A DNA stretch of 64,000 nt from Zea mays (Eukaryota; Streptophyta; Magnoliopsida; Poales; Poaceae), in NCBI RefSeq assembly GCF_902167145.1, contig NW_023366912.1:1-64000 (forward strand), read 5' to 3'. How positions within the stretch are numbered: position 1 is the stretch's first letter; each line of letters begins with the position of its first letter. Below the pieces are notes generated by a model that did not search any database, had not been told where the DNA came from, and saw only the letters and a list, made by a program, of their open reading frames with translations. Shown here in pieces: positions 20,195 to 51,666 of this stretch. The position numbers were made by a program, and so were the translations under genes.

Positions 20195-20231
20195 GGTCGA
20201 TGATCAAAGGCCACACCATTGATCATCGACC
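20195..20231. other. Array inversion junction, head-to-head
   Basis: Forward units end in the middle of the unit start, and reverse units begin immediately. The 12-bp arms GGTCGATGATCA (20195-20206) and TGATCATCGACC (20220-20231) are perfect inverted repeats around a 13-bp spacer. Outside the arms the two sides continue as near-perfect reverse complements for whole units, so the site is the centre of a long hairpin-capable palindrome. No foreign sequence lies at the join. Confidence 0.93.
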
Positions 20232-26200: not shown

Positions 26201-28588
26201 TGGGGGTTGTGTGGCCATTCATCATCGACCAGAGGCTCATAAACCTCACCCCACATATGTTTCCTTGCCATAGATTACATTCTTGGATTTCCGGTGGAAA
26301 CCATTTCTTGGTTAAAAACTCGTACGTGTTAGCCTTCGGTATTATTGAAAATGGTCATTCATGGCTATTTTCGGCAAAATGGGGGTTGTGTGGCCATTGA
26401 TCATCGACCAGAGGCTCGTACACCTCACCCCACATATGTTTCCTTGTCGTAGATCACATTCTTGGATTTCTGGTGGAGACCATTTCTTGGTCAAAAATCC
26501 GTAGGTGTTAGCCTTTGGTATTTTTGAAAATGGTCATTCATGGCTATTTTCGACAAAAATGGGGGTTGTGTGGCCATTGATCGTCGACCAGAGGCTCATA
26601 CACCTCACCCCACATATGTTTCCTTGCCATAGATCACATTCTTGGATTTCTGGTGGAGACCATTTCTTGGTCAAAAATCCGTAGGTGTTAGCCTTCAGTG
26701 TCATTGAAAATGGTCGTTCATGGCTATTTTCGACAAAAATTAGGGTTGTGTGGCCATTGATCGTCGACCAGAGGCTCATACACCTCACCTCACATATGTT
26801 TCCTTGCCATAGATCAAATTCTTGGATTTCTGGTGGAGACCATTTCTTGGTCAAAAATCCGTAGGTGTTAGCCTTCGGTATTATTGAAAATGGTCGTTCA
26901 TGGCTATTTTCGACAAAAATGGGGGTTGTGTGGCCATTGATCATCGACCAGACGCTCATACACCTCACCCCACATATGTTTCCTTGCCATAGATCACATT
27001 CTTGGATTTCTGGTGGTGACCATTTCTTGGTCTAAAATCCGTAGGTGTTAGCCTCTAGTATTATTGAAAATGGTCGCTCATGGCTATTTTCAAGGTCGCT
27101 CATGGCTATTTTCATAAAAAATGGGGGTTGTGTGGCCATTTATCATCGACTAGAGGCTCATAAACCTCACCCCACATATGTTTCCTTGCCATAGATTACA
27201 TTCTTGGATTTCTGGAGGAGACCATTTCTTGGTTAAAAACTCGTACGTGTTAGCCTTCGGTATTATTGAAAATGGTCATTCATGGCTATTTTCGGCAAAA
27301 TGGGGGTTGTGTGGCCATTGATCGTCGACCAGAGGCTCATACACCTCACCCCACATATGTTTCCTTGCCATAGATCACATTCTTGGATTTCTGGTGGAGA
27401 CCATTTCTTGGTCAAAAATCCGTAGGTGTTAGCCTTCGGTATTATTGTAAATGGTCATTCAAGGCTATTTTCGACAAAAATGGGGGTTGTGTGGCCATTG
27501 ATCATCGACCAGAGGCTCATACACCTCACTACACATATGTTTCCTTGCCATAGATCACATTCTTGGATTTATGGTGGAGACCATTTCTTGGTCAAAAATC
27601 CGTAGGTGTTAGCCTTCAGTGTCATTGAAAATGGTCGTTCATGGCTATTTTCGACAAAAATTAGGGTTGTGTGGCCATTGATCGTCGACCAGAGGCTCAT
27701 ACACCTCACCCCACATATGTTTCCTTGCCATAGATCAAATTCTTGGATTTCTGGTGGAGACCATTTCTTGGTCAAAAATCCGTAGGTGTTAGCCTTCGGT
27801 ATTATTGAAAATGGTCGTTCATGGCTATTTTCGACAAAAATGGGGGTTGTGTGGCCATTGATCATCGACCAGACGCTCATACACCTCACCCCACATATGT
27901 TTCCTTGCCATAGATCACATTCTTGGATTTCTAGTGGAGACCATTTCTTGGTTAAAAACTCGTACGTGTTAGCCTTCGGTATTATTGAAAATGGTCATTC
28001 ATGGCTATTTTCGGCAAAATGGGGGTTGTGTGGCCATTGATCATCGACCAGAGGCTCGTACACCTCACCCCACATATGTTTCCTTGCCATAGATCACATT
28101 CTTGGATTTCTGGTGGAGACCATTTCTTGGTTAAAAATCCGTACGTGTTAGCCTTTGGTATTTTTGAAAATGGTCATTCATGGCTATTTTCGACAAAAAT
28201 GGGGGTTGTGTGGCCATTCATCATCGACTAGAGGCTCATACACCTCACCCCACATATGTTTCCTTGCCATAGATCACATTCTTGGATTTCTGGTGGAGAC
28301 CATTTCTTGGTAAAAAATCCGTAGGTGTTAGCCTTCGGTATTATTGAAAATGGTCGTTCATGGCTATTTTCGACAAAAATGGGGGTTGTGTGGCCATTGA
28401 TCATCGACCAGACGCTCATACACCTCACCCCACATATGTTTCCTTGCCATAGATCACATTCTTGGATTTCTGGTGGAGACCATTTCTTGGTCTAAAATCC
28501 GTAGGTGTTAGCCTCTAGTATTATTGAAAATGGTCGCTCATGGCTATTTTCAAGGTCGCTCATGGCTATTTTCATAAAAAATGGGGGT
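20217..28588 (-). repeat. Knob180 array, reverse block, part 1
   Basis: These are tandem knob180 units in reverse orientation (the unit reads on the - strand), from the inversion junction to the insertion point of element A. The part from about 27.57 to 28.43 kb mirrors 17.64-18.50 kb with the same order and spacing of variants. The first ~5.6 kb (20.2-25.9 kb) has no clear position-for-position partner in the left block. Confidence 0.95.
28584..28588. repeat. 5-bp target-site duplication, left of element A
   Basis: GGGGT just before the left LTR is repeated at 35608-35612 just after the right LTR. Removing the element plus one copy restores a normal knob unit. Confidence 0.93.
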
Positions 28589-29039
28589 TGTTGGGGGCCT
28601 TCGTCCTCCGAAGGTCCTCAAAAACATGATTTGACAATGTTTTCCAAGTGGATTATGTGAACAGGTACCTTCGGACTCAGAATTACGAACATGAAGTGCG
28701 GTCAGGACGAAGCCTGAACCAGACGAAGGACGGGCTGATTACCAAGCTCCACGAAGGATGGTGCACAGCCGAAGCTGTGCGCAGGGAAGCTTCGTCGCGA
28801 TAGCAGAGAGGGGAACCGACTTAAAGATGAAAAGACTACGTGGACCTTGTCAGATTTCCATAAGTCATTGACAAATGTAATGGACATAAATGTAATTTTA
28901 CGTAGGCTGCGTCCCGCGTCTATAAATAGATGAACAGTACTCCCGTACTGTTCACGCGGACTTGGCATTTGCTTTTGCGTCACGCTTGTACTTTTTATCT
29001 TCTCTCAGGACTGAAGCATTTGAGAACAAGTCCCCAACA
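28589..29039 (+). repeat. 5' LTR of element A
   Basis: The 451-bp LTR starts TGTTGGGGGCC and ends CCCCAACA. It differs from the 3' LTR only at about 28978 (GCGTC here, GTGTC there). It contains a TATA box at 28921-28928 followed at once by a hairpin. It is rich in CTTCG/CGAAG words. Confidence 0.95.
28921..28953 (+). promoter_or_regulatory. LTR TATA box and adjoining hairpin, element A 5' LTR
   Basis: TATAAATA at 28921-28928 is the likely core promoter for the genomic RNA. It is followed by a perfect 9-bp inverted repeat, GAACAGTAC (28932-28940) and GTACTGTTC (28945-28953), with a 4-base TCCC loop. The transcription start expected about 30 bp past the TATA box falls in or just after this hairpin. 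The same arrangement occurs in element B. Confidence 0.75.
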
Positions 29040-29040
29040 T

Positions 29041-29058
29041 TGGCGCCCACCTCCGGTG
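29041..29058 (+). other. Primer-binding site of element A
   Basis: TGGCGCCCACCTCCGGTG starts one base after the 5' LTR. It begins with TGG, as expected for pairing to a tRNA 3' end. The identical sequence is at the same place in element B. I could not assign the primer tRNA with certainty. Confidence 0.8.
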
Positions 29059-29113
29059 AACTCACTTCCACTTCGAGTTTTTTGAACACCTTCGGAAGCT
29101 ATAGACCCTCGCT

Positions 29114-30632
29114 ATGGCGCCGAAGAAAGCTTCAGCGACTGGGGCTGCAGCACTGCAACCGCTGGACCCCAACCAGGAAACCGTCTCTCTCCGGGAGGCC
29201 CGAAACCAGAAGAGGAAGGCTGTCAGCCCGACGATTCAGGAGGATGAACTAGACCAAGAGATCAGGGACATGGAGATGCTACATCAACAGGTGCAGAGGA
29301 AGAAGGAGAAGATGGCCAGGCTAGCTGAGCTGCAGAGGCAGATAGACGAAGCTTCTGAAGAAGTCCGTCATCTTACCCACGATGAGCAGAACCGAAGGCC
29401 TCAACAAAAAGACCTTCATCAGGAGGGCTTCTTCAATGAAGATGACTGGTATGACAATTTTTCATCATGGAAATTTTGTTTTCGACGATGCTTCTCCTCT
29501 GTCCGCTGAGCTGCAGGCTACACCTTGGCCTCCGTCCTATAAGCCACCCCAGCTTCCCATGTTCGATGGCCATTCGGACCCGAAGCAGTTCTTGATGAGT
29601 TACGAAGCAACAGTGTCTTCGTATGGTGGCAATGCTGCAGTAATGGCAAAGTCTTTCGTTATGGCCGTTAGGAGTGTTGCTCAGACCTGGTATTCCTCCC
29701 TTCGACCAGGAACGATCACTTCATGGCAGAAGCTGAAGGATATGTTATTGACCAGCTTTCAAGGATTTCAGACGAAGCCGGTCACTGCTCAGGCCCTTTT
29801 CCAGTGCACCCAGGACCACGAAGAATACCTTCAGGCATATGTCCGAAGGTTTCTGCGTCTAAGGGCACAGGCGCCGACAGTGCCCAATGAGATTGTCATT
29901 GAGGCCATGATCAAGGGGCTTCGGCCAGGGCCATCAGCGCAGTATTTTGCCAGGAAGCCACCACAAACGCTGGAGAAGCTGCTCCAGAAGATGGATGAAT
30001 ATATTCGAGCTGACAATGATTTTCGCCAAAGAAGGGAGGAGGCCTTCAGATTTTCTGAGATGACCAGGGGCTTCGGAGGAAGATTCTATCCGAGGCATGT
30101 CAGATCAATTCATAATTCCAATCAAAATGATGATAAGGGGAGCCAGCAGCAAAGGCCACAGTACTCCTCACAGGCTTCGGGGCAACAGCAAAGCTCCTTC
30201 CGACCACCAGCTCCAAGAGGCAGAGGCGCCAGGGGCTTCGGCGGAAGATTCGGGGATCAACCCAGAAGAATATTTTGCTTATTCTGTGGTGAAAACAAAG
30301 GTCATACTACCAGGATGTGTCATGTTACCATTCAGAAGCAAAAAGAGATAGCCGAAGCTGCCGCGCAACAGGCTCAGCCGAAGCAGGTCATGCACACTGC
30401 TTCGTATCATTCGCCCTACATCCCAGAATATGTGGGCAACCATCCTGCAGTCTCTGCTGCTTCGGCAAGTCAGCCTTCAGCTTCCTGGCAACAGCCCCCG
30501 CCTCCACCTCCGTTGCAACAAGGCCAGCAGCCAGAAGGGAGCCAATATGCTCCACATCAAAGGGACTTCAGAGAACAGTCCGAAGCTCGCACGGTCAACA
30601 GCACCGTGCCAGAGTCAAAACACATCTATTGA
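29114..30632 (+). pseudogene. gag: gag of element A, one-base frameshift
   Basis: This is the capsid/nucleocapsid polyprotein of a Ty3/gypsy element, about 505 aa if read as one protein. It starts at the ATG at 29114, 75 bases after the LTR. Residues ~1-115 are charged and helical (coiled-coil-like, rich in E, K and Q). A retrotransposon gag domain follows from about residue 149 (MFDGHSDPKQF) to ~290. The tail is rich in Q, G and R, with a zinc knuckle of form CX2CX5HX4C at ~388-402, one residue longer than the usual CX2CX4HX4C. The C terminus is proline/glutamine-rich. The reading frame shifts by one at a run of five T (29458-29462); four T would keep one frame. This could be a copy-specific lesion or, less likely, a programmed shift. 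No protease follows. Confidence 0.9.
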
Positions 30633-31471
30633 CAAATATCCTACCTTAATAGGAATCTTTTTCATTCAGTTTTATTTTTTGTAATAAAGGACATTGTTTA
30701 GGTTTCATGTAATTAGTTTCGTTGATTCTTACAAGAAAAATATGTTTTCTTCACAGGTTTGTGATAATAAAAAGGACCTTCGGACTATCGAAAATCCTTC
30801 GAAGCAACAAAAAGTCGTTCTAAGGAACGCAGAGTAAGTCTGACGAAGTCACAAAAAGTCGTTCCGAAGGGAGCGCAGTGTAAGTTTTCTGCTCCAAAGT
30901 CGTTCCAAAAGGAATGCAGAGCATACAGCGAAAAGTCAACGCTGATACCGCCTAAGTAAAAGGCGAAGAAGCTCCAAAGACGTTCCTAAGGGAATGCAGA
31001 GCTTATACCGCCTAAGTAAAAGGCGAAGAAGTTCCAAAGACGTTCCTAAGGGGATGCAGAACTTACAGCGAAAAATAAACGCTGATTCCGCTGAAGTAAA
31101 AGGCGAAGAAGCTCCTAAGGGAGGCTTATAATGAAAAAGTCAGTATTGATACAAAAGATTGTGCCCCATTGCAGGAATGTGCGTATCTTCGGCACAAAAT
31201 ATCATTTTGCATAACATAACATCATCACATCATTTTGCATAGCATAATCATCATACATCATGCTGCATGTGGCACAAGAAGGGGGCATGTTATCGATCTT
31301 CGGAAAATGCTTTGAAAAAGGGCAAATCATGCCAAGTTACAGGGAGAAACAATATTGATTTTCGAGGTATAGCTTCGGAGATTATTTTTACGAAGCTTGG
31401 ATATTTCTTATCAGAACACTATGGATATTGTCGTGATAAATGATAAATTCTTCTTCACGAAGCATGAAAAG
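30633..31471 (+). other. Non-coding spacer after gag, element A
   Basis: I see no protein gene here on the + strand. It holds an AATAAA at 30683-30688 about 50 bp after the gag stop, a possible polyadenylation signal. The minisatellite at 30811-31130 follows, and then an AT-rich stretch with repeated CATCATCAT/TTTGCAT words (31190-31300). The same order of parts, reversed, follows pol in element B. Confidence 0.7.
30811..31130 (+). repeat. Minisatellite (~80-bp unit) of element A
   Basis: There are four to five imperfect units built from CCAAAGACGTTCCTAAGGGA, an AATGCAGAGCTTACAGCG segment and a CCTAAGTAAAAGGCGAAGAAG segment. Full units are about 80 bp, and one is shortened to about 59 bp. 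The first units are more diverged. It matches, in reverse complement, the 80-bp repeat at 46672-46885 in element B. It lies between the convergent ends of gag and the antisense gene. Confidence 0.85.
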
Positions 31472-31490
31472 AAGGGAAGGTGTTTTTTCG
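31472..31490 (+). repeat. Direct repeat bounding antisense module, copy 1 (A)
   Basis: AAGGGAAGGTGTTTTTTCG occurs here, downstream of the antisense gene's end, and again at 35060-35078 upstream of its promoter. The two copies bracket the antisense gene. Element B has the same pair. Confidence 0.85.
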
Positions 31491-31622
31491 TCGAAGACTC
31501 AAAAATGGTACGTGTTTAAAGTTTCATGCATCGTAAAGAATTGAATCATAAAACAAGTATATTACATACAGGATTACAGAATATTACACAAATCATATAT
31601 CAAATGTTTTTTGCAATAGCAC

Positions 31623-34600
31623 TTAGTCTTCCCTAAGTACTATCTCTGCAGCTTCGTTCAGCAGTCGATCGACAACCTGATCCATGATAGCTTCGGCCAT
31701 CTTTTTAATTTCGTCGTCATCTTTAGGCTGAGGGCCCGAAGATGCTTTAGTAGGATCTGAGTGAGGACAGGATACTATTACATCATTATTACAGATCGCG
31801 AACGAACTATAAAATTAAAAGTTATAATGCAATGAAAACTATTCGTTAGTACCTATTTGCCCTTCGGGCTCTGCGTTTTTCTCAGCAGCCTCGGCTACTT
31901 CTCTAGCATCATGGATGCCCTTTTCACTTCTCTGAATAATTTCTCTTGCCATTTCTCGGCCACCGTTATCCCAGATATCAGTAAAAAACTTTCCACCAAT
32001 TATGCTAGCTTCGGCCGAAGGATCTTTTGTATCTTCAAAGGACAAAGCAGCTTCGGACTGTGCTAAAATTTTCACATGCTCACAGCCCTTCTTCTCTAAA
32101 ATGGTGGCAATCCCTCTGGCGCCAGAGAAGGCACATATATCTCCTCGGCTATTTAAAATTTCTTCGAAGGCTTCAGCTTCGTGGTCAATCCATTCAATGA
32201 CACTTTCGGGATTGCCCCTCAAAAAATTTTCTTCACTTGAGAATGCGCCGACTTTGGCGAAGCTAGCCTTTAATTTTTTAACACAATCTACAGATTTATT
32301 GTAGCATTTCTTTTTGGACGAACGAAGCTCTTCAACAGTCACTTCTAGATGATCTGCCCATTGATCGCTGAGTTCACGCTTTGTTTCTTCAAGTATACGT
32401 TCTTCTTTGGCTCTGGCCAGTTGTTTCCGAAGGTTTTCAATTTCGCGTTTCTGAGCTTCAGCTTGACTTTTGAAAGCAGCTTCGTCCTCCTTTATTTTAT
32501 CTATCAATGAGTATAATATTTTGTCTTTTTCGAGACCTTCGTTCCTCAGTTCAATTACTTCGGAACGAAGGTTGCTCAGGGCTATAGTACATCCTTCGTC
32601 CTCAGCATCTTTCTGTGCTCTGAAGGCATTGCTGAGTATCAGGCCCTGCAGACAGGAATATGTCTGTGTCAATAGTTTTAAACAAACGAAAAATTTTGAA
32701 TTCAACAAAAATATAAGAATTCCATTTGTCGCACCTTTAAACTGTTGTAAGCTAGGCTGTCAGCCAGATCGTTCTTTGACAGCACCGAAAGTCCGTCTTC
32801 TAAAGTTGGAAATCCGAAGCTTCTGCTCATCTCCCGACAGACAGAAATTTCCTTGCTGTCGGGCAGGCAATACAAGAAATCTTCTTCTCCACTGCCATTA
32901 AATATCAACGCCCCCTTTGGATATTTCAACTTTTGGGCATAGTGTTGGGCCTCTTGTTCTTCTTTTTCTGTTAATTTTTTCCCCGAAGCATGACGAAAAA
33001 TATAATCACGAATTTTGGATGCTTCGGGGGTAACAACACCAGTTCCTTCAGCAAAAGTTGGCTTTGTTATTTTTTCTGCCTCACTTTCCAAGGTTTTTGC
33101 CTTTGAGGGCTCTGAGGGCCCAGCTTCGGCTTCAGTATCTTGCTCTGGAGCTTTAGAACCCGAAGCTTCGACTGTTGTTTCAGGAGTGACGGCAGCCTTC
33201 TTCGGAGGGGTGCTTGAAGAATTGATCGTTTCCAGCACATCTAGCACATTAGCCATTCTCCTTCTTTTCGGAGTCACTGCTGGCACTTTTTGATTACTTA
33301 CTGTTTCAATGTTTGCCACAGGACTCAAAACTTCTGATGTTTTGGAATCCTCGGTTGCTTCCTTTACCTCTTCCATTTTTTCTGTGAATGGCGCTTCGGC
33401 CTTCTCTTTCGTTTCTGGTAACAAAATTTTTGATTGCTCCAATTTTGTCTTCGTTGGTATTTCGGCTGTTTCTGTGACTTCTGGCAGCAAAGTTGGCTCG
33501 GCTGGTTTTTCAGCTTCGGTGGCCGAAGAAGTCTCTCCGGTAAACTCAGGCACCGAAGCTGGTTCAATATAACGCGGTCGATAAGTAAGAACCTTTATCT
33601 TCTTCCTTTTCGGTTCTGGCTCGCTAGGAGCAGCTGCAGTTTCTTCTTTTGCAGAGGTTGTATTTTTTCTCTTCTGCCTTCGAATGGGGTAGCAATAGTC
33701 AGGGTAGACAAACCCGATGGCATCAAATACCCGATTCAGCCTTTTCTTTTTTCGGCCTCCGAAGGCTGCTGACATTGCAGTATCTTCGGCCTTCGAGTAT
33801 GTCCCAAGCAGCTCATCACTTAAATTGTCAATGCTTTTCAACCACTCATCGTCTGGCTCAATAAATTTATCTTCAAATTTAAAAGTGTACTTAAACCTGA
33901 CAAGTCCACCTTCGTCGGCCTCTTTAACGGTTTCTTGTGGCATTTCCCATTTCTCCGCAAGCGGCCACACCCTGAAGGCAATATGCTCTTGTACTAAGTC
34001 CCTTGTTCCTATAAAAGAGCAGACAACGCCGAAGGCTCTTTGGCACTCTTCGGCGGCTTCGTTCATTTCAACCTTCGGCCTCCGAAGGCCGAAGCTTTGC
34101 CAAATAGGACGCATAATTATACCTTTGATGTCTTCTCGTGCTGATAAGTCATTCTTCACATAAAACCATTCTGTCATCCAATCCCCGGGCCATCTCTTCC
34201 GAAAGGTTGGTACGGGACAGCTTGCCCCGGACCGAGAGACGAAGCTGTAGCAGCCAAAGTTGTTATGGTACTGTTCTTTGCCCCAAGGCTTTGTTTCATA
34301 TAATAATTCATGAACATTACAGAAGCTTCTTGCGTCAGGCTTCAGACCTTGGCTTCTCGTGGCCCACACGAAGATATTTAGCCTTATAATAGCCTCTGGA
34401 GTAAGTTGATGAAGATAGACTTCGAAGATTTTCAACACCTCCACGACGAAGCTGCTCAAGGGGAATCGCAATCCGGCTTTCAAAAAGCTTCGGTACACCA
34501 CAACTTCATTTTCTTCAGGGTGTGGACAAGTTTTTTCCCCTTCGTCCGCCCTCACAATGGACAGATCCCGGAAATACCTTCCTCTCATATTAACAAGATG

Positions 34601-34861
34601 ATTCTCTTTGATAGTTGATTTACCATAAACTGAATGGCTTGGTCGCCAGGGGCGATCTTCGGAGTCTTCGCCACCGCTGTCCACATCATAACTTTCACTG
34701 TCACCAGTATCTTCAGACAGCCCTTCCAGAATTTCCCTGGTGATCTTTTCTGTGTTGGTCTTCGACATTGCTATAAGAAACCCTAAGTTCTTCTCTTCAT
34801 CAAGACTCAGCTTCATCTCAGCAGCAGCCTTCTTAGCAGCTTCAGACATCTTCGGAAACAC
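31623..34861 (-). CDS. Three-exon antisense gene of element A (putative gypsy-type transposase domain, coiled coil)
   Basis: I read this as a spliced gene opposite to gag: exon 1 34861-32735, exon 2 32645-31853, exon 3 31756-31623, about 1017 aa. It starts at the first ATG (34861); a second Met four codons later (34849) is possible. Residues ~120-300 carry the region known in cereal genomes as 'putative gypsy-type transposase', with YRSFLKAGLRFPL, HQLTPEAIIRL, NFGCYSF and EWFYVK. The annotation name is historical and no transposase activity is shown. Residues ~390-660 are low-complexity, with basic patches (KRKKIKV, PKRRRM) that could be nuclear signals. Exon 2 encodes a long coiled coil (~721-853). 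No disabling mutation is seen once the introns are removed. Function is unknown. The gene runs tail-to-tail with gag. Confidence 0.8.
31757..31852 (-). other. Intron 2 of the antisense gene, element A
   Basis: This 96-bp GT-AG intron has donor AATAG|GTACTAAC and acceptor CTCACTCAG|ATCC. It is AT-rich. Without splicing the protein stops 5 codons into it. With splicing a further 44-codon acidic tail ending in RED follows. The phase is 1. Its place differs slightly from intron 2 of element B, so common origin is less sure than for intron 1. Confidence 0.65.
32646..32734 (-). other. Intron 1 of the antisense gene, element A
   Basis: This 89-bp GT-AG intron has donor TTAAAG|GTGCGA and acceptor CTGTCTGCAG|GGCC, with a T-rich body. 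It is phase 0, between a Lys codon and a Gly codon. Element B has an intron at the same aligned position and phase (after NFK there, after SLK here). Both contain in-frame stops, so the downstream coiled-coil exon needs splicing to be joined. Confidence 0.8.
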
Positions 34862-34992
34862 TAAAAAACTGTTTTTAAAAGTCGAAGCTTCAAAGCTAAA
34901 AACTTAGCAGATCACAATGCACAAGAGCTAAAAAATGAGTGAGCAAGAGTGGTTGGCCAGAAAGCGTGCAAAATAAGTTTGCGGTATGGCCG

Positions 34993-35000
34993 TATTTATA
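34993..35000 (-). promoter_or_regulatory. TATA box of the antisense gene, element A
   Basis: TATAAATA on the - strand lies about 132 bp upstream of the antisense ATG at 34861. It is outside both LTRs, so the antisense gene appears to have its own promoter. Element B has TATATAA at the equivalent place. Confidence 0.65.
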
Positions 35001-35059
35001 CGCTTGATGCGTTGAAAGTTGAAAGACCCCACTTGTCATTGAATGTTGCTATTCTAGCA

Positions 35060-35078
35060 AAGGGAAGGTGTTTTTTCG
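35060..35078 (+). repeat. Direct repeat bounding antisense module, copy 2 (A)
   Basis: This is a 19-bp exact copy of 31472-31490. It continues into GGACCTTCGGC, which also follows one of the copies in element B. It lies about 60 bp upstream of the antisense TATA box (antisense direction) and about 80 bp from the 3' LTR. Confidence 0.85.
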
Positions 35079-35144
35079 GACCTTCGGCATAAAGCCTTCG
35101 TTCATATCGCAATCTGAATTTATTATTTCAAACAAATTAATATT

Positions 35145-35156
35145 GCGAGGGGCTAC
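35145..35156 (+). other. Polypurine tract of element A
   Basis: GCGAGGGGCTAC directly abuts the 3' LTR (35157). Element B has GCGAAAGGGGCTAC at its PPT, so the AGGGGCTAC core is shared. Confidence 0.8.
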
Positions 35157-35607
35157 TGTTGGGGGCCTTCGTCCTCCGAAGGTCCTCAAAAACATGATTT
35201 GACAATGTTTTCCAAGTGGATTATGTGAACAGGTACCTTCGGACTCAGAATTACGAACATGAAGTGCGGTCAGGACGAAGCCTGAACCAGACGAAGGACG
35301 GGCTGATTACCAAGCTCCACGAAGGATGGTGCACAGCCGAAGCTGTGCGCAGGGAAGCTTCGTCGCGATAGCAGAGAGGGGAACCGACTTAAAGATGAAA
35401 AGACTACGTGGACCTTGTCAGATTTCCATAAGTCATTGACAAATGTAATGGACATAAATGTAATTTTACGTAGGCTGCGTCCCGCGTCTATAAATAGATG
35501 AACAGTACTCCCGTACTGTTCACGCGGACTTGGCATTTGCTTTTGTGTCACGCTTGTACTTTTTATCTTCTCTCAGGACTGAAGCATTTGAGAACAAGTC
35601 CCCAACA
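35157..35607 (+). repeat. 3' LTR of element A
   Basis: This LTR is 451 bp and identical to the 5' LTR except for one transition. Its TATA box is at 35489-35496 and its hairpin arms are at 35500-35508 and 35513-35521. Right after CCCCAACA the knob repeat resumes with the TSD GGGGT. Confidence 0.95.
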
Positions 35608-42227: not shown

Positions 42228-42232
42228 GGGGG
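42228..42232. repeat. Target-site duplication, left of element B
   Basis: GGGGG is followed by the LTR start TGTTGGGGAC and is repeated at 51667-51671. It lies one base away, within the knob unit, from the element A target. Confidence 0.9.
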
Positions 42233-42835
42233 TGTTGGGGACTTGCTCTCAAATGCTATGAATTAAGAACAAGGCAACATAAAATGTTAAATATCAATGC
42301 CCTTCGTCCGCCGAAACGTTATCTCCAGAAGGATCTAATGAACTTCGGACGAAGGTCACGAATATGATATTACAAAGGTTTCACCTTCGTAATTAAACTT
42401 ATAAAGATAATATAAAGTAAAGTTGAAACATGAAACATTGCAAATAAACATCTTGAAAACAAATGATGTCATTCATATGTCTTATTATATGAATTTAAGA
42501 TGTTTGAATACAACGATTAAATACATTTATACCTTTGCCTTGACAAGCAATCCGAATGATGCGTTAGTGATTACCGGAATGCGTGAACAGTAAAGGAATA
42601 CTGTTCACTATTTATAGGTATAGGACACAGCCTGTGAGGAATTACAATTATGCCCCTCATAGAAGTTTACAACATCGACTCAGATCTTTATGGACTAAAA
42701 GGTCATTCCATCTTTAAGTCGGTTTCCAATACCGAAGCTTCATGAAGAAGAACCTTCGGTCATCTCATACAAACAGCTTCAGCCGAAAGCCGCTTCTTCC
42801 TAGAAGACCTTCGGCGACGAAGCATAGACCCAACA
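42233..42835 (-). repeat. 3' LTR of element B
   Basis: This 603-bp LTR, read on the - strand, starts TGTTGGGTCTATGC and ends AAGTCCCCAACA. It differs from the other LTR at three sites, near 42263 (ATGAATTAAG/ATGAAATAAG), 42455 (CTTGAAA/CTTAAAA) and 42620 (GGTATAGG/GGTACAGG). The last ~25 bases resemble the LTR end of element A. Confidence 0.95.
42583..42616 (-). promoter_or_regulatory. LTR TATA box and hairpin, element B 3' LTR
   Basis: On the - strand TATAAATA (42616-42609) is followed directly by GTGAACAGTA, a 6-base loop and TACTGTTCAC (10-bp perfect stem, 42608-42583). The stem sequence and its position after the TATA box match element A, though the rest of the LTRs are diverged. The copy in the 5' LTR is at 51414-51447. 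Confidence 0.75.
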
Positions 42836-42849
42836 GTAGCCCCTTTCGC
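42836..42849 (-). other. Polypurine tract of element B
   Basis: On the - strand GCGAAAGGGGCTAC abuts the 3' LTR. It shares the AGGGGCTAC core with element A. Confidence 0.8.
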
Positions 42850-43286
42850 GGTGCTAGATCGTTTTTCGTAACGAGCTTGATCCGTGAAAAAAGTCTCTTA
42901 AGCTTCGGGGAGCCGAAGGTCCGAAAAAACACCTTCCCTGAGCTCGTTGTCGAGAAACGATTCAGTTTCCCGGCGCGTAGTGGTCCCACCTTGCAGAGTT
43001 ACTGTGCATTCCTGCGGTCCACCGCGCAGCGAGTGCAAGCGGGCGTCCGCCTAGTGTAAAAATCCTGGCGCTTCGCCTTCTTACCTGCAGTACTATATAA
43101 ACAAACGAGTAGGTGTGAAGTTACCACAGCATTCATTGCTATTTGCACTGTTTCGCTGCCAAATTTTTTAGCCATCGCCGAAGCTCGACTTTCGGAATCG
43201 AACGAAGCTCCAGCTTGAAGCCTGCTTCGTCAGAAGAAAATACTTCGGAAGAAAAAAGTATTAAATTTCTACAAATTCATAATCAA
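42850..43286 (+). promoter_or_regulatory. Upstream region of the antisense gene, element B
   Basis: No protein gene is supported here. It holds one copy of the bounding direct repeat (CGAAAAAACACCTTCCCT, 42922-42939). A TATATAA box at 43094-43100 lies 187 bp before the ATG at 43287. The stretch between the TATA box and the ATG would be a 5' leader. It plays the part of 34862-35059 in element A. Confidence 0.65.
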
Positions 43287-45320
43287 ATGGCCAGAATACG
43301 CTCTACCGCCAGGGTTGAGCATGATGGGGACGAAGCTGAAGGTTCGGAGACTGTTCCCATCTCCGAAGCGATGCAGAGGTCCGGACTGGTAACTTCGGAG
43401 AAGATCCCTAGTGATGATGCAGGACAAGCAGAACAAGCAATTGCTGAAGCAGAAGAAGAAGATAATGGGGAAACTGATCCCGAAGATGATTACCGCATTG
43501 CCATGCCAAGCAAGCCCAGCCACTTGGACTTCGGGAAATCTACTATTTCGAAGGCTGATCTCTCCAAGATGGTGAAGTCGGGCTTTTTTAATGAAAATCA
43601 GAAGAAGCTATTACGCTTCGGAGGAGAAGAGACTACCCCAAAGCCGGAGAAGGACGAAATTGTTATTTTCAAAAGCTTTCTAAAGGCTGGATTAAGATTC
43701 CCTCTACATGGGATTATTGCAGAGGTACTGAAGAGGTTCGGTATCTATTTTCACCAGCTGACCCCTAACGCCATCGTTAGGCTTAGCGTTTATATCTGGG
43801 CACTCCGAAGCCAAGCGGTGGAACCATTTGCGGACAGCTTTTGCCGGGTCCACGAGCTGCATTATTAGACGAAGGCTAGAAAGGATGGACTGCACGACAA
43901 TTTTGGTTGCTATAACTTCGCCTATCGGAAAACCACAAAATTTCCGGTAATCAGCTACCGAAGCAAATGGGCAGCAGGCTGGAAGTCAGAGTGGTTCTAT
44001 GTCAAGGTTGATGACGACAAGGAGAAGCTTGTGCAAAGTCCACTGGAACTAATCTTCGGAGAAACCCGACCTCGCTGCAACATGACACCCGAAGGTCCAA
44101 CACAACAAGCAATGGATGAATTCAGAATTATTGCAGAGCATATCAGTACAAGGGACCTGGTTCAGGAGTTTTTGGCTTTCAAAGTTTTTCCTAGTTTGAA
44201 AGAATGGGAAATGCCGAAGCTAAAGGGGGAGAAGAAAGAAGGTGAACTTGTACGTTTACCTTACTATTTCAAGTTTAAAAAGTACTTTAAAACACCTTGC
44301 CAAGAGTGGCTAGATACAATTGAAGTAATGTGCAATGAAATACTTGGCAATTATTCCAAAAAAGAAGATCAATTGATGACTGCGGCCTTCGGCACCCGTC
44401 CGAAGCGAAGACTAAACCGAGTGTTGGACGCCTTGGGTTTTGAATACCCTGATTATGAAAATCTGAACAAAGGTGCCGGAGGCCAGAAAAGGAAGAGGAT
44501 AACCGAAGCCTCAAATAAAGATGAAGAAGAGACACCAAAGAAGAAGATTCCAAAGAAGAAGAAAGCATCTTCTCCGAAACGAAAAATATCCGACGAAGAA
44601 AAATCCCCCGCATCACCCTCTGCCACTGATGTGGAGGCAATTTTGAAGGTAATGACTGAATCCATGCCTGCGAAGCTAAGTCCACTAGGGCCTCAACTGA
44701 CAAAATTTTTTCAGAAGGAAAAGGAGCCCGAAAGAATGAAGAAAACGACTAAAGTAAAAAGACAGAGGATGATCGGTGTGACAGAGGTAATTGACAAGAC
44801 ACCGCCAAGAGCTTCAGCTCAAAAAACACCAGCGGCTGTGGAAGGGACAAATATTGAAATTACACCTTCGGAGGTCGCGGTTGCCGAAGCTGCCTCAGCT
44901 GAAGATTTGAACCTGGAGAGCACAGTCGAACACATTGACAAAATACTGCTAGATATGGCTGCAGAAGAAGCTACCACCGCCGCCGAAGAGGCCGTGACCG
45001 CAGCGTCGGGGAAAGGAAAGGAAATTGCTGATGAAGTTTCAGAAAACGAAGCCTTCATGTTCCAGAATTTAATTGGAGAAAAACTATCAAAAGCTGAAAT
45101 AGAAGAGCTTAGAGAGTATGCCAAATCCTGCGGATACAAACCTGGAGCACTCCTCTTCGGAGGCATTGATGATGAAAAATTAGATTGTATTCGAGATCAG
45201 ACTGGAGCCAAAGTTATCGGTACTCTGTCAAAGAGTATCGGCTTTCCGAAGCTAGAAACAGACATCAGCCGCTACCGACGACAACATATCGTTGGTAGTT
45301 TATTTTATTCCAATTTCAAG

Positions 45321-45395
45321 GTGAACTACTTTTTCCCTTAACTTTTATTGTTTCTAATAATGGAGACATGCCTGACGAAGGTTATTTTTGTGCAG
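45321..45395 (+). other. Intron 1 of the antisense gene, element B
   Basis: This 75-bp GT-AG intron has donor TTTCAAG|GTGAAC, a branch-point-like TTCTAATA inside, and acceptor TTTTTGTGCAG|AGTA. It is phase 0 and contains an in-frame stop at 45339-45341. The position matches intron 1 of element A exactly in the protein alignment. Confidence 0.8.
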
Positions 45396-46094
45396 AGTAT
45401 GCTGTTGAGCAAGGCCTTGAAAATGCAACAAGATTTTGAAGACAAAAAGCACGAAGTTATAATTGAAAATTTGGAAAACAGAATAAAGGAGCAATCAGAT
45501 GCTATCGAGAAAAAGAACTTTGAGCTCCATGCAACCGAAGGTTTATTGGCGGAAGCCGAAGCAAAAATAACAGAACTGAACACGAAGCTTCTCCGTCAAT
45601 CTGAGCAGTTCGAACGAGAAAAGCAAGATCTTAATGCAAAAATTGAAGCCGAATCTCAACAAAATTCGGATTTGAGAAAACTATTGACAAGCCTTCAAGA
45701 AAAATGTTTGGAATTTAGCAACAAATGCATTCAACGATTAAGAAAAATTTTCTACTCAATTGGAGCTAGTAGTGAAAAATTCACCCCCTCAGCTGAAGAT
45801 CTACCGAAGACCTTTGACCATATTGAGGGTGAGATTGACGAGCTTGACGAAGTCATAGCTGGGCACGGTGATTTCTGTGCCTGGGTGGCTTCTCGAGGCA
45901 CCGCCGCAGCCTTCCTAAAAGCTGGCTGCGATCACGGAAAGATTGTCAATAGACCGAATTTCACTTTATCACCATCAATCTTAGATGACATTCCTGATCT
46001 CGCCCGAAGTATCTCGAATAGATTTGTAAAAATGATATGGACAAAAGGTGGGCGAGAAAAGGCTGGAGACGAAGCTCGGAGTCATCTCGAACCA

Positions 46095-46167
46095 GTAAGG
46101 AATCATACCTTGTGCTTACCTCTTCCTTCAAGCTTGACTTTGACTTACAACAACCTTATTCATGTAG
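46095..46167 (+). other. Intron 2 of the antisense gene, element B
   Basis: This 73-bp GT-AG intron has donor GAACCA|GTAAGG (a near-ideal plant donor) and acceptor TTCATGTAG|GATG. It is phase 0. Unspliced, the frame ends at 46172; spliced, it ends DDEAETDD and stops at 46192-46194. Confidence 0.65.
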
Positions 46168-46398
46168 GATGACGAAGCCGAAACTGATGACTAAAAAATG
46201 ACGCCGAAGCTGAAGCTCCTTGAAGATTAAATAGTACACTGTAGACAGTACTTGAGAAATTTTTGAGATAACTTTGTAAATGTAACTAAAACTTGTCTTT
46301 AATGTATTCTGTTCATACCTTGTAATATGTTCTTACCCTTCCATTGATGTATGAGAAGTGCTTTGATGTGGACGAAATTTCCTTTTTTGAGCCGAAGG

Positions 46399-46417
46399 CG
46401 AAAAAACACCTTCCCTT
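46399..46417 (-). repeat. Direct repeat bounding antisense module (B)
   Basis: CGAAAAAACACCTTCCCTT on + is the reverse complement of the element A repeat. Its partner is at 42922-42939. Both copies in B are preceded on + by AGCCGAAGG, so the shared stretch is nearly 30 bp with a small gap. Confidence 0.82.
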
Positions 46418-46671
46418 CTTTTCGTACGCAGCAAAGCATAAAAAACAGCATTTCCCTTCTTTCCGAAGCTCTCCCTTTTTGTAGACGAAGCTCTTTTTTT
46501 TCTGTTTGCCGAAGCACCTACTTATGCCATGATGATGATTATCCTACATATGCCTGGATGAATGTTTATGAATGCAAATGCTATGATGTAATGTGATGTG
46601 CAAATGAATGTTCAAACGCGTATCCGAAGCCATACTCATGGCTACTATTTCCTTAAAAACAATCACACCTC

Positions 46672-46885
46672 AGCTCTGCATTCCCTTGGGAACGACTTTG
46701 GAGCTTCTTCGCCTTTACTTTTGGCGGAATCAGCGTTGACTTTTCGTTGTAAGCTCTGCATTCCCTTAGGAACGACTTTGGAGCTTCTTCGCCTTTACTT
46801 TTGGCGGAATCAGCGTTGACTTTTCGCTGTAGGCTCTGCATTCACTTAGGAACGACTTTGGAGCTTCTTCGCCTTTACTTTTTGG
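46672..46885 (-). repeat. Minisatellite (80-bp unit) of element B
   Basis: There are about 2.7 tandem units starting at 46672, 46752 and 46832, each 80 bp and with only a few differences. The unit begins AGCTCTGCATTCCCTTAGGA on +. It is homologous to the repeat at 30811-31130 in element A and sits in the same place, between the convergent genes. Confidence 0.9.
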
Positions 46886-47066
46886 CACTCGATGGTGCGT
46901 TCTCAGCTTTTACATTTACAATTTTGGGGGATTTTTCCCTTATAGAACTAAAAAAGGAAATTACATGTGATGGCCCCATTAAAAACCTTTCTCCCCCTTC
47001 AGAAAGGAAAAGGGTGCCATGAAAGAAAAATAAAATAAAATAAAAAATATGAAAAATTACATCGAG

Positions 47067-50000
47067 TTATACATAATATCGCCGAAGCTTATCCGCATTC
47101 CAAGATCTAGGAATGTCGTTGCCGTCCATATCCTTCAATCTGTATGAACCAGGTCTTGACGAAGATGCTACTAAGAAAGGTTCATCCCATTTCAACTGCA
47201 ACTTGCCTACTGTTTCTGGGTTAGCCACTCTCCGAAGCACCAAGTGTCCTGGCTCAATATTCTTTAGCCGAACCTTTCTATCTCGCCACTTGATTGTTTC
47301 AGCTTGATATTTATTGATGTTCTCCACAGCTTGCAGCCTGATCCCTTCTAAAGCATCTTTTTCCACAGAACAAGCAGCTTCGGAACCTGATTCTGCCGAA
47401 GCTACTACTCTTATTGATCCGGTTTTAGCTTCCTCCAGAGTTATTGCTTCGTCACCGAATAATAACTTGAATGGAGTAAAGCCTGTAGACCTTGATGTAG
47501 TTGTATTGTGGCTCCACACCACTTTGGTTAACTGATCTGGCCACTTTCCCCTGGGTTGATTGAAGATTAACTTCATTATTCCTGTCATAATAATGCCATT
47601 GGCTCTTTCAACAAGTCCGTTTGATTCCGGATGCCTGACTGATGCAAAATGGATCTTCGTACCAATTTGATCACAGAAATCCCTGAAAGCTTCGGAATCA
47701 AACTGTGTTCCATTATCCACAGTGATAGCCTTCGGTACCCCGAAACGACAAACAATATTCTGCTAGAAAAACTTTTGAACGGTGGCCGAAGTTATTGTGG
47801 CTAAAGGCTTTGCCTCAATCCATTTAGAAAAATATTCCACCGCAACTACAACATATCTTAGGTTCCCTTGGGCCGGTGGTAACGGACCTAACAAGTCAAG
47901 GCCCCACCTTTGTAATGGCCATATGGGTTGTATGAGTTGTGTTAAGGACGAAGGTTGTTTTTGATCTCTTGCACATTTCTGACAACCTTCACACTTTTGA
48001 ACTAATTCCGCTGCGTCCGAGGCTGCCTTCGGCCAATAAAACCCCTGACGGAAAACCTTTCCAAGTAACGGCCTAGATCCAATGTGAGATCCACACAGGC
48101 CTGCATGTATTTCTTTCATCAACTCTATGCCTTCGGCTCTAGATAAACACTTGAGTAGCGGAGCACAAACTCCATGTTTGTACAACTCCCCTTCTATCAT
48201 GACATATGGACGAGCTCTTGCCTCTATCCTCCTGTTATAAGCTTCGTCATCTGAAAGAAATTTACCCTGTAGGTAAGAGATGATCTCAGTTCTCCAATCT
48301 TCACTATAAACAGGAGATATATTGAGGACTGCTCTTTCAAGAAGTTCCACCGAAGGTGCTTTTATTGTTTCGAAGAACACATCCGAAGGTAAGGGCAGCC
48401 CCTGTGCCGCTGATTTAGCTAGCAAATCGGCATGCTCATTTTGTCCTCGAGGGATATTTTTAACAGAAAATCCTTCGAAGGAAGCTTCAACTCTTCGGAC
48501 CATGTCCAGATATTTTTCAAGCTTCAGATCTTTAGCCTTGCAACTCTTGTCAATATGACCCGAAACAACCTGGGAATCAGTTTTAAGTATGGCCCTTCTG
48601 ATTCCCATTGCTTTTAGCTTCCGAAGACCCAGAAGCAAGGCTTCGTACTCGGCGATGTTATTTGTGCAACTAAAATCAAGCTTTGCCGCATAGCAAGTTT
48701 TAACTTTGGAAGGTGAAACCAACACAGCAGCTGCTCCTGCTCCGAAGGTTCCCCAAGACCCATCGCAAAACACTATCCATGCTTCGGCATCTTTATTTGT
48801 TTCTTCCTCCTGAGCCCCTGGCGTCCAGTCAGCAATGAAATCTGCTAACGCCTGGGACTGAATCGAAGATCTATGAACATATTCAATACAGAATTCGTTG
48901 AGCTCTGCAGCCCATTTTCCAATCCTTCCAGTAGCTTCTCTATTTCTCATAATATCCTTCAACGGCTGTGAAGAAGGAACAACAATATTGTATGCTTGAA
49001 AGTAATGCCGAAGTTTCCTGGATGCCATCAAAACAGCATACAACACCTTCTCCAATTCTGTATAGTTTTTCTTTGATATACTAAGAACTTCAGATACAAA
49101 ATACACTGGGACCTGCTTTTTGACTTGGCCATCAAGCTTCTCCTGGACAAGTGCTGCACTCACCGCTAAGTGCGAAGCTGCCACATATAATAACAAAGGA
49201 GCCCCTGGCGTTGGTGGAGTTAATGTTGTTAAATCTATCAGGTATTGTTTCAATTCCTCGAAGGCTTTTTGTTGGCTTGGTCCCTATTGAAAGACTTCGG
49301 CTGATTTCAGCACTTTGAAGAATGGTAAGTTTCTCTCCGCTGATCTGGATATGAATCTATTGAGAGATGCCAACCTTCCTGTCAATCTTTGAGCCCCCTT
49401 TTTTGTAGTTGGTGGCTCCATCCGAAGTATAGCTTCAATTTTACTTGGATTAGCTTCGATTCCCTTTGTTGAAACCAAACATCCAAGAAATTTCCCCTTC
49501 TTTACTCCAAAAACACATTTTTCTGGATTCAATTTTAAGCCAGCTTGTCTGAAATTGGCGAAGGTCTCCTGTAAATCAGCAATATGATTCTCCTGTTTCG
49601 TGCTTTTTACAATGATGTCATCAACATAAGTTAGCACATTTCTGCCTATCTGAGACTGGAGAACCCTCGCAGTCATTCTGCTGAAACTTCCTCCAGCGTT
49701 TTTGAGCCCCTCAGGCATCCGAAGATAGCAATACGTGCCACTTGGAGTTATGAAGCTAGTCTTCGGCTCATCTTCCTTTTTCATCCAGATTTGGTGGTAG
49801 CCTGAATAACAGTCTAACAGACTCATGAGTTCTGAAGAAGCTGCTGCATCAACTAAAGAGTCTATCCTTGGCAATGGGAATTCATCCTTCGGACAAGCCT
49901 TGTTAAGATCTGTAAAATCGATACACATTCGCCACTTGCCATTGGCCTTTTTTACCATAACAGTGTTAGCTAGCCATTCTGGATACTTTACTTCTCTGAT

Positions 50001-51020
50001 AACTCCTGCACTGAGGAGTCTTTTGACTTCATTACGAGCACCTTCGGCTTTATCATCTGACATTTTCCGAAGCCTCTGCTTTCTGGGTCTGAAGGATGGA
50101 TCAACATTGAGCGAGTGCTCAATAACATCCCTATTAACTCCGCAAAGATCATTGGCTGACCATGCAAAAACATCTTTGTTGTTGAACAAAAACCTTATCA
50201 AGGTTTTCTCTTGTTCTTCGGATAACTGAGAGCCCAACAGCACCTTCTGCTCTGCTATGTCCTCACATAAGAGCATGGGCTTCGGCTGATCTGCTGAAGC
50301 TGCTTTCTCCCTTCTGAATTTGTATTGTTCACAAGCTTCAGCTCCATCTATGTTATGGATTGCTTTTGAGTCAGTCCAGTTTCCTTCGGCCCTTCTGGCA
50401 GCTTCCTGACTTCCATGGATAGCGATGGGTCCTTGATCCGAAGGTATCTTCATGCAGAGATAAGCAGGATGAAGAATTGCTTCGAAAGCATTGAGGGTGC
50501 CACGACCAATGATTGCATTGTAAGGATATTCCATGTCAACAATGTCAAACACAACTTGCTCAGTTCTGGTGTTGTTGATGAACCCGAAGGTCACTGGCAT
50601 GGTGATCTTGCCCAGTGCTACAATCTGTCTTCCTCCGAAGCCACAGAGAGGATGTGTAGCATCATGAATCTTATCTTCTGGCTCTTGCATTTGTCTGAAG
50701 GCCTTAGCAAATATGATATCAGCTGCACTACCTGTGTCAACCAAGACATTGTGGACCAGAAATCCTTTGATAACACAAGAGATAACCATGGCATCGTTGT
50801 GTGGGTAATCCTTGAGCTGAAGATCCTCTTGGGAGAAGGTAATGGGAATGTGAGACCATCTTGACTTGATGAAGGGTCCCTGCACCCCAACATGCTGTAC
50901 CCTTCTCTGTGCTTCTTTTTTCTGCTTCTTATTGGCTGGCTCTAAGGACGAACCACCTGTAATCGGGAGCACCAGCTTCGGGTCCGAAGCAGCTCCAGCT
51001 CGATCATTGAACGAAGCCAT
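47067..51020 (-). pseudogene. pol: pol of element B with two amber stops
   Basis: This is one frame of 1318 codons encoding the replication enzymes. I start at the ATG at 51020 (MASFNDRAG), just after the leader; an upstream Met would lie inside the LTR. Domains in order are an aspartic protease (LVDTGSAAD, Asp ~95) and a reverse transcriptase (LLDCYSGYH; YVDD ~465-468). A connection RNase H (~600-720) follows, then a second RNase H (FCDGSWG Asp ~753, EYEALL ~793, TDSQ Asp ~815) typical of the Tat lineage. The integrase has an HHCC finger (H972, H979, C1010, C1013) and a DDE core (D1041, D1102, E1138; 35 residues between the last two). TAG codons interrupt at 49284-49286 (codon 579) and 47763-47765 (codon 1086). 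Both sit where a Trp (TGG) would fit. There is no gag upstream. Confidence 0.92.
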
Positions 51021-51044
51021 CAGCTCAAAAAGTGGAAGTGAGTT

Positions 51045-51062
51045 CACCGGAGGTGGGCGCCA
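51045..51062 (-). other. Primer-binding site of element B
   Basis: On the - strand TGGCGCCCACCTCCGGTG begins one base after the 5' LTR and is identical to that of element A. The identity runs on through GAACTCACTTCCACTT and then ends, where A enters its longer leader and B goes to the pol start. Confidence 0.8.
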
Positions 51063-51063
51063 A

Positions 51064-51666
51064 TGTTGGGGACTTGCTCTCAAATGCTATGAAATAAGAA
51101 CAAGGCAACATAAAATGTTAAATATCAATGCCCTTCGTCCGCCGAAACGTTATCTCCAGAAGGATCTAATGAACTTCGGACGAAGGTCACGAATATGATA
51201 TTACAAAGGTTTCACCTTCGTAATTAAACTTATAAAGATAATATAAAGTAAAGTTGAAACATGAAACATTGCAAATAAACATCTTAAAAACAAATGATGT
51301 CATTCATATGTCTTATTATATGAATTTAAGATGTTTGAATACAACGATTAAATACATTTATACCTTTGCCTTGACAAGCAATCCGAATGATGCGTTAGTG
51401 ATTACCGGAATGCGTGAACAGTAAAGGAATACTGTTCACTATTTATAGGTACAGGACACAGCCTGTGAGGAATTACAATTATGCCCCTCATAGAAGTTTA
51501 CAACATCGACTCAGATCTTTATGGACTAAAAGGTCATTCCATCTTTAAGTCGGTTTCCAATACCGAAGCTTCATGAAGAAGAACCTTCGGTCATCTCATA
51601 CAAACAGCTTCAGCCGAAAGCCGCTTCTTCCTAGAAGACCTTCGGCGACGAAGCATAGACCCAACA
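51064..51666 (-). repeat. 5' LTR of element B
   Basis: This 603-bp LTR differs from 42233-42835 at three positions. On the - strand the TATA box is at 51447-51440 and the hairpin at 51439-51414. It drives pol transcription toward lower coordinates. Confidence 0.95.

Follow-up and report, generated by a model that had tools for sequence, protein, structure and literature searches.

An antisense gene with two conserved predicted introns in a probable Retand/Tat-type LTR retrotransposon of maize

Results

Two LTR retrotransposons in a satellite array

The window, by which we mean the entire 64,000-nucleotide stretch of Zea mays contig NW_023366912.1 (GCF_902167145.1, positions 1 to 64,000), is an array of ~180-bp satellite units with two inserted LTR retrotransposons, A and B. 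We take the array to be maize knob180. Units of 180 and 202 bp both occur, with higher periods of 360 and 382 bp, and the array has two strand switches, one at 20216 and the other between 63167 and 63238. The genome searched below, which contains the window, is 2.18 Gb.

Element A (28589..35607, + strand) is bounded by 451-bp LTRs (28589-29039 and 35157-35607) that differ at one position, with the target-site duplication GGGGT on both sides and a PBS-like sequence, TTGGCGCCCACCTCCGG, beginning at 29040. Its gag (29114..30632, + strand; PF03732) lies in two frames, 29114-29509 and 29382-30632, that overlap at 29382-29509, and includes a zinc-knuckle-like CX2CX5HX4C motif read by eye. The element has no pol-like ORF. 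Ahead of its 3′ LTR it carries a second gene, antisense to gag. Between gag and this antisense gene are 60-bp tandem repeats (30890..31120, + strand) related to 80-bp repeats of element B. Tandem Repeats Finder (TRF) assigns 2.1 copies to the array in A and 2.6 to that in B, and PMC11963269 counts only arrays of at least three. All seven other A copies that we fetched with their flanks are collinear with the window, running from inside gag (30123 or slightly later) through the repeats and the antisense gene to the 3′ LTR.

Element B (42233..51666, − strand) possesses pol, and the interval from its 5′ LTR to pol holds no gag ORF, such that gag and pol are split over the two elements. The 603-bp LTRs of B (42233-42835 and 51064-51666) show three differences, the repeat match that defines them extending one flanking G beyond the LTR, and the target-site duplication is GGGGG. 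Reverse transcriptase (RVT_1), RNase H and an integrase zinc finger were identified by Pfam on the − strand, together with a protease motif, DTGS, read by eye; the rve domain scores under its Pfam cut-off. A and B are neighbors in one array and have the PBS start TTGGCGCCCACCTC in common, but their LTRs differ, sharing only a 76-bp stretch, and the two do not constitute one LTR family. Both are inserted at the same place of the satellite unit to within about one base, AATGGGGG/TT (28584-28593 and 42228-42237). Knobs are described as a preferred location of Cinful-Zeon elements in PMC7238635, and a fixed insertion place within the satellite unit would be a finer preference than this one.

Structure of the antisense gene

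The first-pass annotation of this locus proposed an antisense gene of ~1017 amino acids within element A. The gene is present, although its length is 1013 residues once both introns are removed, since position 34861, taken as the start in the list of open reading frames, is a GTG and the first ATG of the frame lies at 34849. All features of the gene are on the − strand. Exon 1 (32735..34849; 705 codons) encodes a Transposase_28 domain (PF04195) at residues 117-177, matched at 1.8e-10 and 41.4 bits against a cut-off of 26.2. Basic clusters follow at about residues 366-373, 391-396, 414-420 and 527-531, partly within columns that are nearly invariant among relatives. Intron 1 (32646..32734; 89 nt, GTGCGA..CTGCAG, phase 0) separates exon 1 from the 793-nt exon 2 (31853..32645), and intron 2 (31757..31852; 96 nt, GTACTA..CTCAG, phase 1) separates the latter from exon 3 (31623..31756), which comprises 44 codons and a TAA stop (31623-31625). 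Both GT-AG introns thus fall exactly where they had been proposed, their removal joins the three pieces into one open frame, and the third exon has the predicted 44 open codons before its stop. Base composition follows the same partition, with T accounting for 40-41% of the introns and 21-22% of the exons of A.

A putative TATA-box promoter, TATAAATA (34993..35000), lies upstream of the gene and outside the 3′ LTR, and is whole in 39 of 40 young copies of the family (described below). Downstream, an AT-rich flank with repeated TGTAAT (31500..31617) is likely the 3′ UTR and poly(A) region of the antisense gene. AlphaFold2 modeled exon 2 as a single helix spanning its residues 2-131, with mean pLDDT of 91-96 in blocks of residues 21-80, and its model of exon 1 was poor (mean pLDDT 35.9). 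According to this prediction, the coiled coil sits in exon 2, with exon 3 contributing a short tail, which corrects the earlier description of a C-terminal coiled-coil exon.

Open reading frame alone is a poor guide to such introns. At junction 1, 24 GT-AG pairs of 60-180 nt, the proposed intron included, preserve an open frame through the whole of exon 2, and at junction 2, 17 GT-AG choices, again including the proposed one, add at least 20 codons. Because so many choices fit, the frame by itself is not beyond chance and constitutes weak evidence for the introns; relatives decide. One competing acceptor for intron 2, at 31775 (adding six codons), was set aside, since its AG falls inside a branch-like TAATAG when aligned with relatives.

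Intron 1 in relatives

A search with the spliced protein yielded 255 relatives, and the 120 listed among these cover at most 70% of the query, which is the exon 1 share; a query of residues 700-1013 yielded 12. These 120 listed and all 12 afforded 132 relatives for the end of exon 1. The last residues of the exon are mostly LADSLAYNSLK, beyond which the tails vary in sequence and length. Thirty-three of the 132 do not extend to the end of exon 1; in the other 99, the residue that follows it is V in 98 and M in one. A valine at this place corresponds to GTN, and hence to the donor of intron 1. In nine of the 12 relatives found with residues 700-1013, a single ORF runs from the end of exon 1 through an insert of variable sequence into exon 2; in the remaining three, the frame had already changed (two cases) or the region was absent (one). 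The nine ORFs read through intron 1 because the intron happens to be open there, with flanks that agree around an insert that varies.

The acceptor side was assessed with 132 exon 2 relatives, comprising the same 12 and 120 listed of 3958. Fifty-nine of these begin past the start of exon 2 and five begin at it, and the residue preceding exon 2 is Q (CAG) in 62 of the 68 that have one. At the nucleotide level, we compared 12 of 75 matches in the same genome, all of them diverged copies. Their intron 1 measures 60-85 nt, with GT in 11, GC in one and AG in all 12; the sample is biased toward open introns with lengths that are multiples of three because the query read through the intron. Relative to intron 1 of the window, 44% of the aligned bases in these copies differ.

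Intron 2 and a constrained third exon

Among the listed exon 2 relatives, 123 reach the donor of intron 2, and the residue after exon 2 is G, as expected from G|GT, in 117 of them. Forty diverged copies from the same genome, out of 75 matches, were fetched around the end of exon 2. The GT donor is present in 40 of 40. The acceptor place was located in 39, and 35 of these have AG (30 CAG, four TAG and one GAG), as scored with a pattern written after the alignment had been seen; the other four read CAA, and copy L055 carries another sequence at this place. Of these 39 copies, 38 have a branch-like CTAAY or CTGAY motif at −20 to −26. The introns measure 68-76 nt, and in 26 of the 39 the length is not divisible by three, such that the splice sites are kept across relatives while the intron length shifts out of frame.

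Downstream, 26 of the 40 diverged copies keep the exon 3 frame open to a stop near codon 51, and its C-terminal part, …VVDKLLNEAAEKILREE, matches the …VVDRLLNEAAEIVLRED of the window. Conservation of this frame in family copies had been named in advance as one test of the three-exon model. Of the 39 copies, eight with frameshifts or other breaks were dropped, and the remaining 31 were assigned by eye to one group of 21 and another of 10. Between the groups, pN was 0.148 and pS 0.638, affording a dN/dS of 0.12 for these unbroken copies, with differences per codon position of 0.20, 0.11 and 0.46. The two other frames of exon 3 gave pN/pS values of 0.24/0.33 and 0.28/0.16. The frame is therefore conserved at the protein level.

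Selection and variation among copies

Purifying selection extends to the rest of the gene. Over 78 pairs of 13 sequences, exon 2 gave a dN/dS of 0.14; in exon 1, the 3′-terminal 90 codons gave 0.12 and a longer part 0.28. Comparing the window with each diverged copy, we obtained 0.07 for these 90 codons and 0.22 for the longer part; in exon 2 pS reached 0.745 and dN/dS was not computable. Values of 0.07-0.28 in exons 1 and 2 of diverged copies describe an old, selected part of the element rather than the passenger gene of the first-pass annotation.

Young copies behave differently. Element A and 39 further full-length copies at 98-100% identity, taken as the best of 12374 candidates and hence leaning toward intact copies, have no exon indel, retain the GT and AG of both introns in 40 of 40 and keep the spliced frame whole in 35 of 40. 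Purifying selection is not visible within these 40 copies, with pN/pS of 0.77 in exon 1, 0.83 in exon 2 and 3.05 in exon 3, the last on nine changes (seven nonsynonymous, one synonymous and one stop). Such ratios in young copies are expected from drift after insertion. The 40 copies form two subfamilies of 17 and 23, with 85 fixed differences packed largely in two tracts: 44 at 35130-34876, the promoter and 5′ UTR, and 34 at 31896-31748, from the end of exon 2 to the start of exon 3. The pattern looks as it would after exchange with another family. We rejected the idea that subfamily divergence is cut sharply at the intron 2 splice sites, since the changes already set in within exon 2, 44 nt ahead of the donor.

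Intron divergence is one observation that counts against our preferred explanation, since a freely drifting intron would change more. Intron 2 diverges by 0.20 compared with a pS of 0.64 in exon 3, and thus changes less than synonymous sites. Intron 1 diverges by 0.21 among diverged copies (pS about 0.44-0.53, all pairs) and by 0.44 relative to the window (pS 0.67-0.75).

A homologous gene in element B

Element B carries a homologous antisense gene on the + strand. Its exon 1 (43287..45320) encodes PF04195 and is interrupted by an in-frame TAG at 43866-43868, which breaks the gene in this copy. A predicted 75-nt GT-AG intron 1 (45321..45395) has the place and phase of that in A and is followed by exon 2 (45396..46094), and a possible intron 2 donor, CCA|GTAAGG, occurs at 46095. 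Identity between the A and B antisense genes is 29% in exon 2 and 46-49% in parts of exon 1. By codon position it is 0.47-0.59, 0.56-0.67 and 0.305-0.349 for positions 1, 2 and 3, respectively.

Unspliced and joined junctions in the genome

Allowing up to three mismatches, we located the unspliced exon 1-intron 1 junction at 726 places in the genome and the joined exon 1-exon 2 pattern at none. Hence no copy near the A subfamily shows passage via spliced antisense RNA. The absence of joined junctions agrees with a sense-strand genomic RNA, and fits the earlier suggestion that antisense placement lets the introns survive; it says nothing for splicing taking place. Likewise, in none of 252 fetched proteins is exon 1 truly joined to exon 2, or exon 2 to exon 3. 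The lone match to the junction pattern among them, P0176, proved to be an intron whose last codon reads K. No relatives were found in viral and prokaryote contig collections.

Discussion

The exon-intron layout that the first-pass annotation read from the sequence is confirmed and its interpretation is partly supported. Position and PF04195 support the assignment to an antisense gene of a Tat/Retand-type element. At the level of sequence, the gene and its intron sites, their conservation and selection among diverged copies, and the occurrence of the gene in both gag-only and pol-only elements are all evident, and the introns are very probably removed. Overall, we consider it probable that element A bears a Retand/Tat-type accessory antisense gene with its own TATA box, whose mRNA is spliced twice to encode a ~1013-residue protein. 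The TATA promoter next to the 3′ LTR would drive the gene lying between gag and that LTR, and the host would splice the antisense mRNA twice. The resulting ~1013-residue protein would present, in order, the N-terminal Transposase_28 region, a basic linker, a conserved block with the intron 1 junction inside it, the coiled coil and the exon 3 tail. It may then enter the nucleus, pair via its coiled coil, bind DNA or RNA, and assist the element or regulate it; by inference, the likeliest function is that of a nuclear accessory protein that dimerizes and binds nucleic acid. The introns would be retained because the element replicates through a genomic RNA of the other strand, where these sites are no splice sites.

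A simpler gene model, in which intron 1 alone is real, would let the protein terminate a few codons beyond the proposed intron 2 donor and make exon 3 a remnant. Indeed, 123 of 132 exon 2 relatives reach this donor and stop two to five residues later, and protein data alone cannot separate an intron 2 donor from a conserved protein end. However, exon 3 is constrained in precisely the predicted frame (dN/dS 0.12), in contrast to the other two (pN 0.24 with pS 0.33, and 0.28 with 0.16). It is also preceded by a branch-like motif and usually an AG, at the end of introns whose lengths are mostly not multiples of three. We therefore regard the single-intron model as unlikely.

Two further accounts dispense with an accessory protein of the element. 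The locus might work as an antisense RNA that pairs with the genomic RNA to tune or silence it, so that the frames matter little. The antisense position of the gene would suit this role, and double-stranded RNA is raised as a possibility in PMC7264820. Protein-level constraint in all three exons and the codon-position pattern between A and B, where third positions are the least identical (0.305-0.349), make an exclusively RNA-based function very unlikely, although RNA and protein roles may coexist. Still more improbable is a captured host gene carried as cargo by element A. Introns and a TATA box of its own are host-gene-like features, but the gene recurs in 39 other full-length copies, 98-100% identical, that ranked best among 12374 candidates, it is collinear from inside gag into the 3′ LTR in seven of seven copies with flanks, and a homologue occupies the same place in the distant element B. 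PMC11963269 furthermore reports nothing resembling the domain outside transposable elements. A twice-spliced accessory gene belonging to the element itself is the reading that we retain.

Retand-lineage elements, Grande with its gene23 among them, are already known to carry antisense genes of this kind, with the Transposase_28 domain (PF04195). PF04195 antisense ORFs were reported in 97% of Retand clusters (all but two of 63), with predicted DNA binding (PMC11963269), and the Grande antisense gene is reported to have its own promoter and nuclear localization (PMC7264820). Grande gene23 and aORF-3R (RIRE2, Retand) resemble the A gene in their antisense orientation, their location in the interval from the sense genes to the 3′ LTR, PF04195 and promoter-like sequence upstream. 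Tandem repeats before the 3′ LTR, which are frequent though not universal in this group, also lie near the A gene, at 2.1 copies by TRF. In contrast, those genes are described as ORFs, and the A gene has two conserved introns and a third exon. The word "intron" does not occur in the main text of PMC11963269 or PMC7264820, the latter of which calls for a look at spliced antisense transcripts. Our literature search found no introns in these antisense genes; Gomez-Orte 2013, on Grande, lies outside that search and may report them. The conserved introns and the selected third exon thus seem to be a new detail of a known gene type.

Among other systems, maize Cinful (POL only) and Zeon (GAG only) parallel the present pair, with A carrying gag and no pol-like ORF, B carrying pol and no gag ORF, and both in one satellite array; unlike Cinful and Zeon, the 451-bp LTR of A and the LTR of B share only the 76-bp stretch. 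Element B, with an LTR of 603 bp and an internal region of 8.2 kb, is near "Zea mays 1/2" in Table 1 of PMC11963269 (LTR 585-587, internal region 8.2-8.4 kb, no GAG). HBZ of HTLV-1 offers a likeness in layout as an antisense, spliced, protein-coding gene on the 3′ side of a retroelement, but HBZ transcripts start in the 3′ LTR (PMC1459196), and the TATA box of A lies outside it. Ogre and EVADE are likewise LTR retrotransposons that use host splicing. Their introns give subgenomic RNAs by alternative splicing (PMC12786077), presumably of the sense transcript, whereas those of A are antisense.

The function of Retand antisense genes is called open in both PMC11963269 and PMC7264820. Retention of the gene in a gag-only as well as a pol-only element suggests a direct service to whichever element carries it, whereas gag and pol can come from others. 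This suggestion draws on two elements, with the B gene broken in this copy, and on the Cinful/Zeon case (PMC8547701). A protein deduced from the unspliced ORF would end at intron 1 and forgo the coiled coil and tail, about 30% of its length. Studies of domains and conservation that start from ORFs may therefore cover an incomplete protein. The three-exon model provides a better protein for localization and binding studies and exact junctions for long-read RNA data, and it would add an antisense case to the few intron-bearing plant LTR retrotransposons named in PMC12786077. More tentatively, and with somewhat less than even confidence, a large class of plant LTR elements may carry an antisense gene in which both introns and the third exon predate the divergence of its families, selected even after the loss of gag or pol, and encoding a spliced nuclear accessory protein that each type of element would need for itself.
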